This document shows positions 21,639-29,304 of a DNA stretch of 64,000 bases, one piece after another. The stretch is from Desulfobulbaceae bacterium (GTDB lineage: Bacteria; Desulfobacterota; Desulfobulbia; Desulfobulbales; Desulfocapsaceae). The notes below the pieces were generated by a model. The model did not search any database. It had not been told where the DNA came from and saw nothing but the letters and a program-made list of their open reading frames with translations. The number at the start of each line of letters is the position of its first letter. Within the stretch, counting starts at the first letter, position 1. The DNA lies in NCBI GenBank assembly GCA_026988015.1, contig JALSMA010000078.1:1-64000 (forward strand). The letters run 5' to 3'. Both the position numbers and the translations under genes were made by a program.

Positions 21639-24215
21639 ATGAACACATCACTGAAGTTGAAAGTTTCCGCGCTGATCTTCTTTATTGCGCTCTCTATTAT
21701 CACTATTGTTCCCTCATTTTACAACTCCACCCCTGACTGGTGGGAGAAGTACATGGCCCCTGAAGGATTGCGCCTGGGACTTGATCTTCAGGGTGGTATG
21801 CATCTTGTCCTCAAGGTCAATCTTGATAAGGCTGAAGAGGACTCTCTTGAACTTGCCGCAAACGAGCTGAAGGACCTTTTGAGGGATGAGGGTATCAGTG
21901 CGGTCCGTACAAAATCAGATCCTGGAGTTGTTCTCTTTACCCTGCCAAATTCCGGTGCGGTCGAGACGGTCAACCGGGTGGTAAAAGACAGCTTTCCAGA
22001 AATTGATGTGCAAGTAGACGCCAAGGAAGGCTCTTTTCCAAAGATAACTGTGACTCTCAAGAGTTCTGAAATTGACTTCATCCGTACCCACGCCGTTGAG
22101 CAGTCCCTTGAGATCATCAGGAACAGGATTGATCAGTTTGGTGTAGCAGAACCTGTGATAATCCGCCAGGGTGAAGCTGAGATAGTGGTGCAGCTTCCGG
22201 GGGTGAAAGACCCGAAACGAGCCTTAAAACTCCTCGGGGACACCGCCCAGCTTGAATTTAAACGAGTGGCCGATGCTGCCGGGATCAATATCAGGGTGCT
22301 GGCAGAAGAAGCACGGACGGCTGGACAATGGGATGGAACCTGGACCAGCCATGAAGAACTCGCCAAGCTCAACAGGGCCCTGCAGAACAGACTGCCTGAA
22401 AACACCAGAATATATATTGAAAAAGACACTGACACCCAGACCGGCAAAGAGATCATTCGGCCCATTCTCCTGGACACCCAGATCCTGATGACAGGTGAGA
22501 TGGTCAAGAATGCTCAGGTTCGGATCTCCAATCAGTTTAATGAGCCATATGTCTCCTTGGACTTCACTTCCAAAGGTGGCAGAGTTTTTGCCAAACTCAC
22601 GGAGGAGAATGTGGGAAAACGGATGGCCATTGTACTCGACGACGTTGTCCGCTCAGCCCCTGTTATACGTGAAAAAATCCTGGGCGGTTCCGCCCAGATA
22701 AGCGGAAGCTTCACCCATGAGGATGCGGCAGATCTCGCCATTGTCCTGCGTGTTGGTGCACTCCCTGCTCCGGTTGATATTATCCAGAACATGACAGTCG
22801 GGGCAAGTCTCGGTCAGGATTCCATCACCAAGGGAATGACCGCAGGTGTCTTTGGCGCTCTTATTGTGCTGGTTTTCATGGGCATCTACTACAGACTCTC
22901 GGGTGTTATTGCCAACATAGCCCTTATCTTAAACATTCTTTTTCTCTTTACCGGCCTGGCCATCCTCAATGCAACCCTCACCCTGCCTGGTATTGCCGGT
23001 ATTATCCTCTCCATAGGAATGGCCGTTGATGCCAATGTACTCATTTTTGAAAGGATGCGGGAAGAATACAGTCTTGGAAAATCTGTAAAGTCCAGTGTTG
23101 ACGGTGGATTCAGCAAGGCGTTCTGGACCATTGTCGACTCCCAGGTTACAACTCTGATTACCGCCATGGCACTTTTTATGTTCGGTACCGGTCCAATCAA
23201 AGGATTTGCCATCACCTTGTCACTGGGAATTATTTTCAACCTGTTCACTGCCCTTTTCTGTTCACGCTTGATATTTGACACTCTTTACTCCTTCAGACTT
23301 ATGAAGAAGCTCAACTTCATGCAGTTTGTAAAAAAGCCCAACCTGAACTTTATGAAGATCAGAAATTTCACCTTTGCAATATCAGGAGTACTTGTAATAA
23401 TTGGCATGGTCGCCTTTATCCAGATTGCCAGAGGAAAAGCCAACATGGGCGTTGATTTCTCCGGTGGTTCCCTACTGCAGTACAAAGCATCCGCCGACTT
23501 TACCATGGACGAAGTCCGTACAGTCTTCGGTGACAATGATCTCAAGAATGCCAACCTTCAAGAGGTTGAAGGTGAGCATCGTCTGATTGTTAAAATCAAA
23601 AAATCGGAAGAAGTGGTGGGAGACCTCAGCGAGCAGATTACAAATCTACTTGCCACGAAGATGCCTGAAAAGGGCTTCACCCTTGAAAGCCAGTCTGAAA
23701 TCGGCTCTTCCGTCAGTGCGGTACTGAGAAACAAAGCAATACAGGCAATTTTCATATCTCTGCTTGGTGTTATCATCTATCTTGCGATGCGTTTTGATAT
23801 CCGTTTCGGCCTTGCTGCAGCCGTTGCAACGTTCCATGATGTAATCGTAGTACTCGGTATCTGCTGGCTCCTTGATGTCGAGATAACTCTTCTCATTGTC
23901 ACCGCCCTGCTTACTCTAGCTGGATATTCACTGAATGACTCCGTGGTCGTCTTTGACCGTATTCGTGAAAATATGCAGAAATCCGAAGACCACTCGCTCC
24001 TGCAGCAGATTAACCGCAGTATCAACGAGGTGATGGGGCGAACCTTTGTCACCTCACTGACAACCGCCATGACTCTTCTTGCTCTGTTTTTCTTTGGTGG
24101 TTCAGTAATTCACAACTTCTCCCTGGCTCTTCTCCTTGGAGTCCTGGTCGGTACCTATTCTTCAATCTTCATAGCCAGCCCCATACTCAGCCTGTGGCCT
24201 GCAAAGAAGAGCTGA
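21639..24215 (+). CDS. secDF: Fused protein-export membrane protein SecDF
   Basis: An 858-residue fusion of SecD (about residues 1-555) and SecF (about 560-858). They form a proton-driven motor that assists SecYEG in pulling proteins across the membrane. SecD features include GLDLQGGMHLVLKV near the N-terminus, a large periplasmic part and GMAVDANVLIFERMREE near residue 460. SecF begins with FMKIRNFTFAISG and includes GVDFSGGSLLQY, then SLNDSVVVFDRIRE near the end. In most relatives the two are separate genes; here no stop or frameshift separates them. YkgJ-type and HAD genes follow closely. Confidence 0.95.
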   Translation: MNTSLKLKVSALIFFIALSIITIVPSFYNSTPDWWEKYMAPEGLRLGLDLQGGMHLVLKVNLDKAEEDSLELAANELKDLLRDEGISAVRTKSDPGVVLFTLPNSGAVETVNRVVKDSFPEIDVQVDAKEGSFPKITVTLKSSEIDFIRTHAVEQSLEIIRNRIDQFGVAEPVIIRQGEAEIVVQLPGVKDPKRALKLLGDTAQLEFKRVADAAGINIRVLAEEARTAGQWDGTWTSHEELAKLNRALQNRLPENTRIYIEKDTDTQTGKEIIRPILLDTQILMTGEMVKNAQVRISNQFNEPYVSLDFTSKGGRVFAKLTEENVGKRMAIVLDDVVRSAPVIREKILGGSAQISGSFTHEDAADLAIVLRVGALPAPVDIIQNMTVGASLGQDSITKGMTAGVFGALIVLVFMGIYYRLSGVIANIALILNILFLFTGLAILNATLTLPGIAGIILSIGMAVDANVLIFERMREEYSLGKSVKSSVDGGFSKAFWTIVDSQVTTLITAMALFMFGTGPIKGFAITLSLGIIFNLFTALFCSRLIFDTLYSFRLMKKLNFMQFVKKPNLNFMKIRNFTFAISGVLVIIGMVAFIQIARGKANMGVDFSGGSLLQYKASADFTMDEVRTVFGDNDLKNANLQEVEGEHRLIVKIKKSEEVVGDLSEQITNLLATKMPEKGFTLESQSEIGSSVSAVLRNKAIQAIFISLLGVIIYLAMRFDIRFGLAAAVATFHDVIVVLGICWLLDVEITLLIVTALLTLAGYSLNDSVVVFDRIRENMQKSEDHSLLQQINRSINEVMGRTFVTSLTTAMTLLALFFFGGSVIHNFSLALLLGVLVGTYSSIFIASPILSLWPAKKS

Positions 24216-25631: not shown

Positions 25632-26690
25632 TTATCCGTCCTCACCAGACTCATCAACCCGCTTGATTCCTTCCATTAACAGCATCATGAAGTCTCCGAT
25701 TTCAGCGGCCTTCATCTCTTCGGGTGAGAGTCCTGTAGTGAAAGTGTAGCGCCCCTCTTTCTCCTTGAGCATCGCAAAAATTGCGGCCTGATTGGAGTGT
25801 TTTCTGTATTGGGCATTAATCACACAGCCTTCCCGAAAAGAAACTTTGGCTTCACCTTGGGGAAGATCCATGGCAAGCACCCCGGTTTTTTGATTCATGT
25901 GAAATATCTGAAAGAGTTCTGCCGGAGGCATCTCGCGAATCCAGCCACTCATACAGGCATCAAAAGTATCAAAATGGCTGGCATTGGACTGCGTCAGGCG
26001 CTGCACAAGAATTTTGGCCATAAAGAGTTGCAGCTCTGGGATTCGATCGAGAAGTTTACTGAACGCATCACCTGAAACAGATAACACCTCAGAATCGGTG
26101 ACAGTTTTCACATCAGCCCCGGCTACATCACCACCAAGATAACTCATCTCACCACAAATGTCTCCCGGTCCCAGAGTTGCTATAATTAGAGAAGTATCAG
26201 ACACCACAATCTCACCGGACAGAATAAGATAGAGGTACAAACTGTTCTGGCCCTTGGTTATAAAGGTAGTATCTGCGGCAAATCGTTCTCTGCGAAAAGA
26301 ACGGATGACACTATGGAGATACGCATCAGGGAGTGCCTGAATAAGAGGAAAATCGCGAATCTCCGCAAGCAGCGCTACGGCATCGGCATCCAGAGGTGCT
26401 ACCACAGACGCTCCCTCCTGGCGGGCATCTGCTTCTGAGATACGATCGAACTTAATGAGCCCGGTACAACCGCTGCAGCTGTAGATTTTATCATCAGCTG
26501 CTTCCATGTCAGCACCGGAATCCAGAAGGCCGAAAAGAATATTGGTCATTTCTCGCACCAGTATCAGGCAGGTAGCCTTATTTTTCGGGCAGGAAAGAGC
26601 CTTGTCAGATAACGACAGGAGTTCACCTTTTTCATAAAGGGGGCAGTTGTTATCGACAGTTATCTTAAAATATAATTTTAAATTCTTCAT
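25632..26690 (-). CDS. Cyclic-nucleotide-domain / DUF4388 (PATAN) signalling protein
   Basis: A 352-residue protein of three parts. Residues 1-82 hold a Cys-rich module (Cys16, Cys34, Cys41 and CSGC at 72-75). Residues about 115-235 are a Crp-like cyclic-nucleotide-binding fold. The phosphate-binding cassette reads GEMSYLGGDVAGADVKTV and lacks the Arg of the usual RSA, so cyclic nucleotide binding is doubtful. Residues 250-345 resemble DUF4388/PATAN. There is no DNA-binding helix-turn-helix, so it is not a Crp-type activator. It is transcribed divergently from the E2-fold gene. Confidence 0.78.
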   Translation of the reverse strand: MKNLKLYFKITVDNNCPLYEKGELLSLSDKALSCPKNKATCLILVREMTNILFGLLDSGADMEAADDKIYSCSGCTGLIKFDRISEADARQEGASVVAPLDADAVALLAEIRDFPLIQALPDAYLHSVIRSFRRERFAADTTFITKGQNSLYLYLILSGEIVVSDTSLIIATLGPGDICGEMSYLGGDVAGADVKTVTDSEVLSVSGDAFSKLLDRIPELQLFMAKILVQRLTQSNASHFDTFDACMSGWIREMPPAELFQIFHMNQKTGVLAMDLPQGEAKVSFREGCVINAQYRKHSNQAAIFAMLKEKEGRYTFTTGLSPEEMKAAEIGDFMMLLMEGIKRVDESGEDG

Positions 26691-26764
26691 CGTTCTTCAC
26701 GTTACCATACCAGCACTATCTTGATGACAAAAAAATATTTTTTTTATTAATGTAACAAATATTT

Positions 26765-26792
26765 TTGTTTTACCAGAAGTTACTGCTATACT
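26765..26792 (+). promoter_or_regulatory. Predicted promoter of the E2-fold gene, with overlapping inverted repeat
   Basis: TTGTTT (26765-26770) and TATACT (26787-26792) with a 16-base spacer form a plausible sigma-70 promoter about 90 bases before the gene. An inverted repeat AACAAA / TTTGTT (26754-26769) overlaps the -35 box and could be an operator. Confidence 0.45.
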
Positions 26793-26883
26793 TGCAATAT
26801 CTATCGTCTTTAATATACTAGAATACTAATGATTCGTGAACGAACACGCTCACTCGCTCTCTCCTTACAGGCTTCATTCTGCT

Positions 26884-29304
26884 ATGAATAAAACCAGCAA
26901 TCAACTTGATACCGTATTCCAAGAAGTAACTGAATATTTTCATGATATTCCTAAAATCACTGTCACCCCAGGCGATGGTAATCCGCCGGAACAGTACACA
27001 GTTACTTACGCCATAAAAGGACTCTGCAAAGAAAGTGGCGGGGATGTTTATTCCTGCAATAATCATGTTATCTCCGTTTCGCTCCCATTTGGTTTCCCTC
27101 ACTTCCCACCAAACTGTCTTCCCGAGAGCCCCACCTTTCACCCGGATTTTGACTCCTCGGCCATCTGTATAGGAGATATATGGGAATCTGACAAATCAAT
27201 AATCTCCCTTATTCTTCATATTGGGAAGATGGTCGCAGGAGAAGTCTACTCAAAAACCAACGCCTTCAATGAAGAAGCAGCGAAGTGGTACAGAGCTAAC
27301 AGCGACCAGCTCCCCTTTGACAGCGTTGATTTTGAAAAGGATCCTGTCCCACAAGCAGTACCAGAAGTTGCAAAAGAAACCGAGCTCGACAGCATCGACA
27401 CCCTTGACGACAGTGATTTTGGTGCCTCTTTCACTCTCGAAGATACCCCGGCTCCTGCTAATGAAATTGATGTTGACCGTCTCCGTATTATTGCAAAACA
27501 AAAGAGATTCCAGGCGCTGTCGAGAGAATTGCAGACCATCAGTGAACCCTTCGAGGGGAGAACAGAACTCGAACAGCAGGTACAGACAGCCATGGATCAG
27601 GCCATGGCACTCTTCAGTGAAGCAAACACTCTGGAGCATGAGGGAAACCAGCAAGGAGCAATGGAGAAGTATAATGCCATTGAAAATCTAGTCTCTGACT
27701 ACCCGATGCTTCATGAGTCCAAGGAGAGAGTACAACAAGCCTTTGACCTCCTCGGTGACTGGCTTCCCGGTAACAATAAAGACAACGAAACCAGCCAGGA
27801 AAAAGAACCCGCTAGCTCTGGCTCTGAAAAATCCGGTGGCAGTTCCGCCAAACGGACATTTTTCGAAGAAACCAAGGCTGCAAGTAAAAAATGGTTTCTC
27901 GTGGCTCTTGGGGGGGGCACCATTGCCCTCATTGTTACTCTTACCTTCACCTATTTCTCCCTGGGTTCCAATCTCCATAAAGCCCAAAAGAGGTTTGGGG
28001 AATGCCAGGCACTGCTTGATGCCAATGACTTTTTTGGAGCTCAGAAAAAATGCGACGAGGCCCTCAGCCTGACAAAAGAAGTACGAATGGTGAAACAGGA
28101 CGAGAAGGATGAACTATCCCGTAACATTCGCATCCTTTTGTCTTCTCCCAAGCTCCGCCAGGGACTCACCGGAAAGATCATTCTCAATGGAAAGTACGTT
28201 ACCAAGGACACCAAAAAACTAGTCCTGGCCTTCCACAAGGCAAAGAAAAACGGGGATTCTTTTTATAAAAAAGAACTCTGGAACGAAGCGGTCAACAGCT
28301 ATACAAAAGCCCTGAACATTGCCCAAAAGACAACTTTCATTGATGCGCCAATCCTTGCCGAGGTTCATCAGAAAATGTCACGCTCACAGTTCAACAGTAT
28401 CATGCAGGCCGGTGAACGATACCTAGCCACTTCCGACTGGGAGGGTGCCACTAAGCAATTCGAGAAGGCTCTTGAACTTGCCAAAGATACCCCCCACGTC
28501 CTCTCGGAAGACATAACCCAACTGGAACTACTCTCCAATCAATCAAAATTTAATACTCTCAGGGATCTGGGTCACAAGGCCTTCAACTCTGGTGACTGGA
28601 GCGATGCTCTCAAAAATTACCAACTCGCCCTTGAGCTTGTCAAAAAACTAAACCTCGGCAAATCAGACACCATATCCAACCTGCACGAAAACATCGCAAA
28701 GACTCAAATATACATGACCATTGAAAAGGGGAAAAAGGCCTTTGCTGCAGCTGAATGGGACGATGTCATTGAGCAGTACGAAAAGGCAATTCTATTGCTT
28801 GAGGAAAACTCCAAACTGCTGAGCAAAATCAACACCAAGGAGAGTAGAGTCAAGCTGTCAAGAATCATGCTCCACGCCGCTATCATCAAAGACAAACAGG
28901 ATGCTGCCAAGTTTCTCAAGTCAGAAGAGTACCCGTCAGCCATTGAAAAATTAAGAAATATCCAGTCTTCCATTAAAAACAGCCAGTTTACTGAGATGCC
29001 TGAGTTTCAGACTATCCTCCACGAAATCGCAGCACAGATCAAAAGTGCTGAAAAACAGGCCATGCTGGTTGAACAGACCAGATACCTCACGAATAATTTC
29101 GAAAAATTATTTCTCAAGCACTACCCCGCAGCAAGACGATCCATACTCAGCGCGCCAAAGGTGGAATATCTTAAAAATATCGGCGACAAACTCCTCTTCA
29201 GGATGCAGTGTACCGAAACCGCTGGTGGTCGCCCGCTACGCCTTCAGATGGATTACCTCTACTCACCTGCCACAGGAGCCTGGAACTTTTATGCTGAAGA
29301 ATAA
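26884..29304 (+). CDS. E2/UBC-fold, single-pass membrane protein with TPR repeats
   Basis: An 806-residue protein whose first ~140 residues read as a ubiquitin-conjugating-enzyme fold. The strand LPFGFPHFPPN precedes FHPDFDSSAICIGDIW, which matches the E2 HPN/active-site block: His86-Pro87-Asp88, then Cys95 in the catalytic position, then Trp100. The C-terminal helix start NAFNEEAAKWY corresponds to the E2 PLNxEAA-Y motif. A linker of about 200 residues, rich in acidic, Ser and Gln segments, leads to one membrane helix (about 338-358) preceded by Lys-Lys, so the E2 part should be cytoplasmic and the rest periplasmic. The outer part has four TPR-like units of about 53 residues (near 458, 512, 564 and 617), for example GDWSDALKNYQLALEL. 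The ATG at 26884 is chosen over the GTG at 26836, as a minimal, not certain, start. No E1, ubiquitin-like or E3 gene is seen in the window. Function unknown. Confidence 0.8.
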   Translation: MNKTSNQLDTVFQEVTEYFHDIPKITVTPGDGNPPEQYTVTYAIKGLCKESGGDVYSCNNHVISVSLPFGFPHFPPNCLPESPTFHPDFDSSAICIGDIWESDKSIISLILHIGKMVAGEVYSKTNAFNEEAAKWYRANSDQLPFDSVDFEKDPVPQAVPEVAKETELDSIDTLDDSDFGASFTLEDTPAPANEIDVDRLRIIAKQKRFQALSRELQTISEPFEGRTELEQQVQTAMDQAMALFSEANTLEHEGNQQGAMEKYNAIENLVSDYPMLHESKERVQQAFDLLGDWLPGNNKDNETSQEKEPASSGSEKSGGSSAKRTFFEETKAASKKWFLVALGGGTIALIVTLTFTYFSLGSNLHKAQKRFGECQALLDANDFFGAQKKCDEALSLTKEVRMVKQDEKDELSRNIRILLSSPKLRQGLTGKIILNGKYVTKDTKKLVLAFHKAKKNGDSFYKKELWNEAVNSYTKALNIAQKTTFIDAPILAEVHQKMSRSQFNSIMQAGERYLATSDWEGATKQFEKALELAKDTPHVLSEDITQLELLSNQSKFNTLRDLGHKAFNSGDWSDALKNYQLALELVKKLNLGKSDTISNLHENIAKTQIYMTIEKGKKAFAAAEWDDVIEQYEKAILLLEENSKLLSKINTKESRVKLSRIMLHAAIIKDKQDAAKFLKSEEYPSAIEKLRNIQSSIKNSQFTEMPEFQTILHEIAAQIKSAEKQAMLVEQTRYLTNNFEKLFLKHYPAARRSILSAPKVEYLKNIGDKLLFRMQCTETAGGRPLRLQMDYLYSPATGAWNFYAEE

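Follow-up and report, generated by a model that had tools for sequence, protein, structure and literature searches.

The window (the whole stretch of 64,000 nucleotides analysed here, from contig JALSMA010000078.1 of a Desulfobulbaceae bacterium) carries on its forward strand an intact open reading frame of 806 amino acids with an ATG start (positions 26884-29304). Relatives with assigned names indicate a Desulfocapsa-like genome. The frame was open in all 20 genomes of the genus, being partial at contig ends in G013 and G015, and in most genomes of the family. An upstream GTG at 26836 is a possible alternative start; since the frames of four orthologues (L005, L008, L009 and L016) begin just two codons upstream of the position of ATG 26884, the latter was taken as the start and, from this comparison, is likely the true one. 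The product combines a domain with the ubiquitin-conjugating (UBC/E2) fold, a transmembrane (TM) helix and TPR-like helical repeats, and is referred to below as the E2-TM-TPR protein. Upstream, beyond a divergent intergenic region of 193 bases (26691-26883), lies a partner gene on the reverse strand (25632-26690), which encodes 352 residues. These comprise, from the N-terminus, a domain in which four cysteines are invariant (Cys4, residues 1-90), a cNMP-binding domain (135-216) and a DUF4388 domain of the PATAN type (248-347). Both genes belong to a fixed order: secDF-like, YkgJ-like, HAD, divergent partner, E2-TM-TPR, KdsD-like, metK and ahcY (names without a profile search were read from the sequence). 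In the window, SecD and SecF are apparently fused in a single frame of 858 residues (21639-24215), as read from the sequence.

The E2 domain occupies residues 1-146 (26884-27321). A preliminary description had proposed a UBC fold for the first 140 or so residues on the basis of the motifs LPFGFPHFPPN, FHPDFDSSAICIGDIW (with Cys95) and NAFNEEAAKWY. All three were found where it had placed them, and the fold was recovered by several comparisons. Pfam family PF00179 (UQ_con) matched the 806-residue protein with E=8e-5 and 22.6 bits, under its curated cut-off of 27, and exceeded that cut-off in relatives from G088, G079, G095, G367, G120 and G426. Searching PDB sequences with phmmer retrieved UBE2M and UBE2C at E=0.0015-0.002, and a profile built from 30 E2 domains of the family (profile A1) reached UBE2C (E=9e-9) and matched Cys95 to the catalytic Cys. 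The full-length AlphaFold model (mean pLDDT 81, mostly 80-90 in the E2 region) displayed the order of elements of a UBC domain: helix alpha1 (3-19), beta strands between 25 and 80, the active-site loop (85-96) and helices 97-103, 106-117 and 130-138. Its alignment with UBE2S by VIA-align gave Z=13.2 and an rmsd of 2.2 A over 124 residues, and all 50 rows among the matches listed were E2s; the Foldseek list for the full-length model contained TPR proteins. The similarity of residues 1-146 to E2s exceeds chance, and fold and sequence profiles both place the domain in the E2 superfamily. It was also the region conserved best (57%, compared with 38% for the whole protein, in the pair L020/L021), and its dN/dS ratio against L086, about 0.07 with synonymous sites close to saturation, indicates purifying selection.

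Downstream of the E2 domain, the model and homologues showed an acidic, disordered linker that carries an IDTLDDxDF-type motif (residues 151-195, 27334-27468), which is followed in the model by a helical, TPR-like repeat (196-290, 27469-27753) and a disordered stretch (295-340). The repeat is missing from shorter relatives (for example L052, L163 and L162), where the linker leads directly to the TM helix and the E2 domain is still retained. The TM helix itself (338-356, 27895-27951) was the only one in each of the 33 homologues aligned, as the preliminary description had it. Since Lys and Arg averaged 5.1 per 20 residues before this helix versus 1.9 after it in the same homologues, the positive-inside rule would put the E2 part in the cytoplasm and the large repeat region outside, in keeping with the topology proposed earlier; the protein is thus predicted to be a type-II single-pass inner-membrane protein. 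On the presumed outer side, Cys374 and Cys390 (28003-28053), each found in 85% of the 33 homologues, would fit a possible periplasmic disulfide. Helical repeats cover residues 382-746 (28027-29121), as seen by Pfam (which matched TPR families), the model and Foldseek. In the model, two-helix repeats start at 488, 541, 594 and 651 with a pitch of 53-57 residues, which agrees with the figure of about 53 first proposed. NCBIfam matches to Amuc_1098 and TraC were weak, confined to the repeat region and far below cut-off, and were rejected. Four beta strands within residues 755-802 make up a C-terminal domain (29146-29301) whose Cys776, likewise on the presumed outer side, was present in 100% of the alignment.

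The E2 domain was found in 55 of the 59 family genomes searched, i.e. all 20 of the genus and 35 of 39 others, mostly as a single-copy gene, and in 11 of 395 genomes sampled across the phylum, nearly all with the same gene order. Neighbourhoods were compared at about 50 loci; the genome-wide search for related loci used one peptide pattern and reached close relatives only. Viral contigs and plasmid collections yielded no relatives within the sensitivity of these searches. A mobile antiphage system is ruled out by this occurrence in 55 of 59 family genomes, the conserved synteny and the lack of a plasmid or viral-contig match: the gene is a vertically inherited chromosomal core gene, unlike the patchy conjugation cassettes of bacteria. 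One genus (g2; L050, L083 and L084) carries a second, E2-TM-repeat paralogue of about 540 residues with Pro at the Cys position, which lies beside a clpA-like gene and, in L050 and L084, also a clpS-like one. A ClpS-ClpA linkage was discarded as a general trait of this paralogue because it is confined to that genus.

Elsewhere in the order, other families have homologues of the repeat and TM part that carry no E2 domain (L045-L048), so the domain was either gained or lost there. Such proteins favour a reading in which the E2 domain would only stabilise the cytoplasmic end, as a structural cap, and the periplasmic repeat region would be the working part. Yet the E2 domain is the part conserved best, its motifs PFGFPHFPP and NAFNEEAA are preserved, and it is the cytoplasmic repeat, not the E2 domain, that the shorter relatives have lost. 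We consider such a capping role very unlikely.

The active-site region HPDFDSSAICIGDI (residues 86-99, 27139-27180; Cys95 is codon 27166-27168) displayed an uneven conservation. The preliminary description had asked for the conservation of both Cys95 and His86. The latter was invariant among the E2 domains compared, and Cys95 was common but not general: among 102 distinct E2 domains from open frames, position 95 was Cys in 83, Arg in eight, Pro in three, Ser and Ala in two each, and Tyr, His, Lys and Asp once each. The 19 domains missing it include all five short paralogues of about 540 residues; it was kept in every genus member examined. Parsimony on a FastTree tree of 101 E2 domains counted 11 changes in the Cys95 column, none at P72, P76, H86, P87 or A132 and one each at W100 and N129, and Cys95 ranked only 47th of 151 columns in constancy. 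Isolated losses inside the Cys clade were seen in L040 (His), L077 (Ser), L118 (Tyr) and the pair L146/L034 (Ser/Arg), and the rest of the domain was intact in these. The HPN motif of E2s reads HPD in the 806-residue protein and nearly all relatives, its Asn being present only in L174 and L189 among the 102 domains. The loop beyond Cys95 is shorter than in eukaryotic E2s. Asn126 occupies the place of the classical active-site Asp (UbcH5 Asp117, Ubc9 Asp127).

The repeated loss of Cys95 with the domain kept implies a thioester-independent function in at least part of the family, and catalysis as the conserved job of the domain is doubtful; its conserved task would need no thioester chemistry. 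Cys95 is nevertheless far from absent throughout the homologues, so activity is conceivable for Cys-bearing members, the 806-residue protein included, and this majority may do more than the thioester-independent function.

The protein could be a true membrane-tethered E2, whose Cys95 would take a ubiquitin-like protein (Ubl) from a housekeeping ThiF/MoeB-type E1 and pass it to membrane substrates. The alignment of Cys95 with catalytic Cys residues, the invariant H86-P87 pair and the 83 Cys-bearing domains favour it; the repeated Cys losses, the Asp in place of the HPN Asn and Asn126 where classical E2s have Asp count against it. Neither the reading of the window nor the neighbourhoods (about 50 loci) revealed a recognisable E1, Ubl, JAB or E3 gene beside E2-TM-TPR genes, which bears out the solitary position attributed to the protein from the start, and no E1, Ubl or E3 gene dedicated to it turned up. 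The proposed genome search for partners was carried out with PF00899 (ThiF) and PF14464 (JAB) in the protein's own genome and brought none linked to the E2 gene. One ThiF match was clustered with ThiS-like, OAH-sulfhydrylase-like, JAB and TusA-like genes and a second with a MoaD-like protein and an oxidoreductase; of the further ones, one had two internal stops and one was sub-threshold. The JAB matches were the one in the ThiS-like/ThiF cluster and a sub-threshold one. The interrupted ThiF-like match (G000:C41:16747-17508) is broken by two TAA stops and is possibly a pseudogene. These clusters were read as sulfur-carrier systems, a role that speaks against the tethered E2; the presence of a ThiS-like, ThiF and JAB cluster in the same genome counts in its favour, and the ThiS-like carrier of this OAH-sulfhydrylase/ThiF/JAB/TusA cluster would perhaps be its cargo. 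A conjugation operon for the E2-TM-TPR protein was dismissed, no own-genome ThiF or JAB match being linked to its gene.

Another family of the phylum (G426) yielded a remote relative from within this E2 family, 361 residues long and with HPN and Cys intact. It lies in an apparent E1-E2-Prok-RING-JAB cluster (L176, G426:C35, 4385-13595), with a ThiF E1, JAB, Prok-RING_1, FHA, J-domain-like and AAA ATPase members as well as trypsin-like genes. This cluster is a candidate Ubl-conjugation system in which the Ubl component was not recognised, and an E2 of its type was absent from 45 other genomes of the order of G426. G120 (L177, G120:C63, 5257-8418), which likewise belongs to a family of the phylum other than that of the window, has a 1054-residue E2-repeat-TM-coiled-coil protein without the catalytic Cys. 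The G426 relative favours the membrane-tethered E2. These finds would be compatible with an origin of the E2 domain of the membrane protein in a conjugation cassette. Taken with the evidence on the other side, we regard the tethered enzyme as unlikely.

The divergent partner provided a different lead. Its Cys4 domain (Cys16, 41, 72 and 75) had no Pfam match; the model (pLDDT 86) gave weak matches, the best being to the N-terminal part of 3on5 (XdhC-like; Z 6.4), and the resemblance to 3on5 and 2we8 (XdhC-like) lies in a range that unrelated folds reach. RING and ubiquitin-like folds were considered for this domain; its fold matches included neither of them, though this does not disprove either. 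The partner was still divergent and adjacent in L052, L073, L074 and L079, where the remaining synteny is gone, and orthologues at E <1e-26 occurred only in genomes with the E2 domain, lower-scoring paralogues being more widespread. Three of these paralogues, with the same Cys4-cNMP-DUF4388 order (L194:1356-2420, L195:7358-8446 and L198:6625-7713), adjoin glnK/amtB-like, cytochrome or other genes. The partner was absent beside the E2 gene in G001, G011, G022, G028, G029, G030, G041, G043 and G053, elsewhere in which paralogue-level or no matches were obtained; it therefore cannot be the sole interactor.

A relationship was observed between the partner and position 95. The full partner was adjacent to 64 of 76 Cys-bearing E2 domains versus three of 19 Cys-less ones (L052, L163 and L077), and partner versions lacking the cNMP domain (L041, L042, L073 and L178) accompany Arg or Lys at that position. 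Three of the four isolated Cys95 losses fell on partner-less branches, which make up 16% of the branch length of the Cys lineage (p ~0.016 from 20,000 random placements of the losses on the tree), a figure to be taken as a lead because it concerns four events among non-independent relatives and a pattern seen before the test. Since the state of Cys95 tracks the presence of a protein with four invariant cysteines, the two domains might act together in these anaerobes as a switch that depends on redox state or on metal, a thiol role that has nothing to do with ubiquitin. Set against this, partner paralogues retain the four cysteines without an E2 neighbour and the three Cys-less domains just named still have the full partner, so that we give the switch only a small chance of being correct.

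In our best reading the protein is a type-II membrane scaffold on which the E2 domain serves to dock other proteins, probably the divergent partner; we assign this reading a probability of roughly 0.55. A docking module is more likely than an enzyme since conjugation machinery is absent nearby and Cys was lost several times. The protein would sit in the inner membrane by its single pass; its cytoplasmic E2 domain would dock one or more proteins much as UEV or RWD domains do, while the periplasmic repeats and the C-terminal beta domain would bind something beyond the membrane. In this way some assembly or signal in the periplasm would be coupled to a regulator in the cytoplasm. The likeliest such regulator is the Cys4-cNMP-DUF4388 protein, whose binding by the E2 domain we infer. 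Against docking stands the retention of Cys95 by most domains, including every genus member examined, as pure docking does not require a Cys. Hence, from the original suggestion of a novel conjugation or scaffold system, the scaffold half gained support and the conjugation half lost it, with Cys95 replaced, HPD in place of HPN and no dedicated E1, Ubl or E3. That a membrane-tethered E2 receives a housekeeping sulfur-carrier protein from a ThiF/MoeB-type E1 and modifies a membrane-proximal regulator, namely the partner, seems quite improbable; if true, sulfur bacteria would have protein conjugation encoded in their core genome, outside defence islands.

Bacterial E2-fold proteins have so far been described mainly from mobile E1-E2-JAB gene clusters. 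In the present case the gene belongs to the vertically inherited core of a bacterial family as a whole, its host here being a sulfur-cycling bacterium, and the product is anchored in the inner membrane. Across the relatives the E2 active site disappeared on several occasions and the domain remained, a natural series that makes testable what an E2 fold does without conjugation. The gene also directs attention to a partner.

No earlier description of a membrane-anchored bacterial E2-TPR protein was met in the open literature searched, most subscription papers lying outside that search. Bacterial E1-E2-JAB operons (types 6a-6e) and Cys-less RWD-like domains were described by Iyer et al. 2006 (PMC1779556), and the BilABCD system, in which BilB has a CEHH motif after the catalytic Cys, is reviewed in PMC11354881. 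The likeness to such operons lies in the bacterial E2-fold domain and the clustered distant relative of G426; unlike them, the gene is single, chromosomal and syntenic, with neither E1, JAB or Ubl neighbours nor a plasmid or viral match. The CEHH motif of the BilB type is absent, CIGDIWESDKSIIS having no His at +8 or +13 from Cys95. With eukaryotic E2s (UBE2S, UBE2C and UBC9; PF00179) the domain shares the fold, the P-x-x-[FY]-P-x-x-P-P strand motif, the HP motif, a Cys in place and the C-terminal helices. It differs from them by HPD for HPN, a shorter post-Cys loop, Asn126 for the active-site Asp, the fusion to a TM helix and repeats, a Cys that varies family-wide and the lack of a dedicated cognate E1 or Ubl among the genes found. 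The partner resembles DUF4388 signalling proteins (PF14332) in its cNMP-binding and DUF4388 domains and departs from them in its N-terminal Cys4 domain, which has no Pfam match. UEV and RWD domains, e.g. that of TSG101, are inactive versions of the E2 fold. The 806-residue protein is unlike these in still having Cys95, whereas the part of its family without Cys (19 of 102 domains) has kept the fold as they have, which suggests a binding role.
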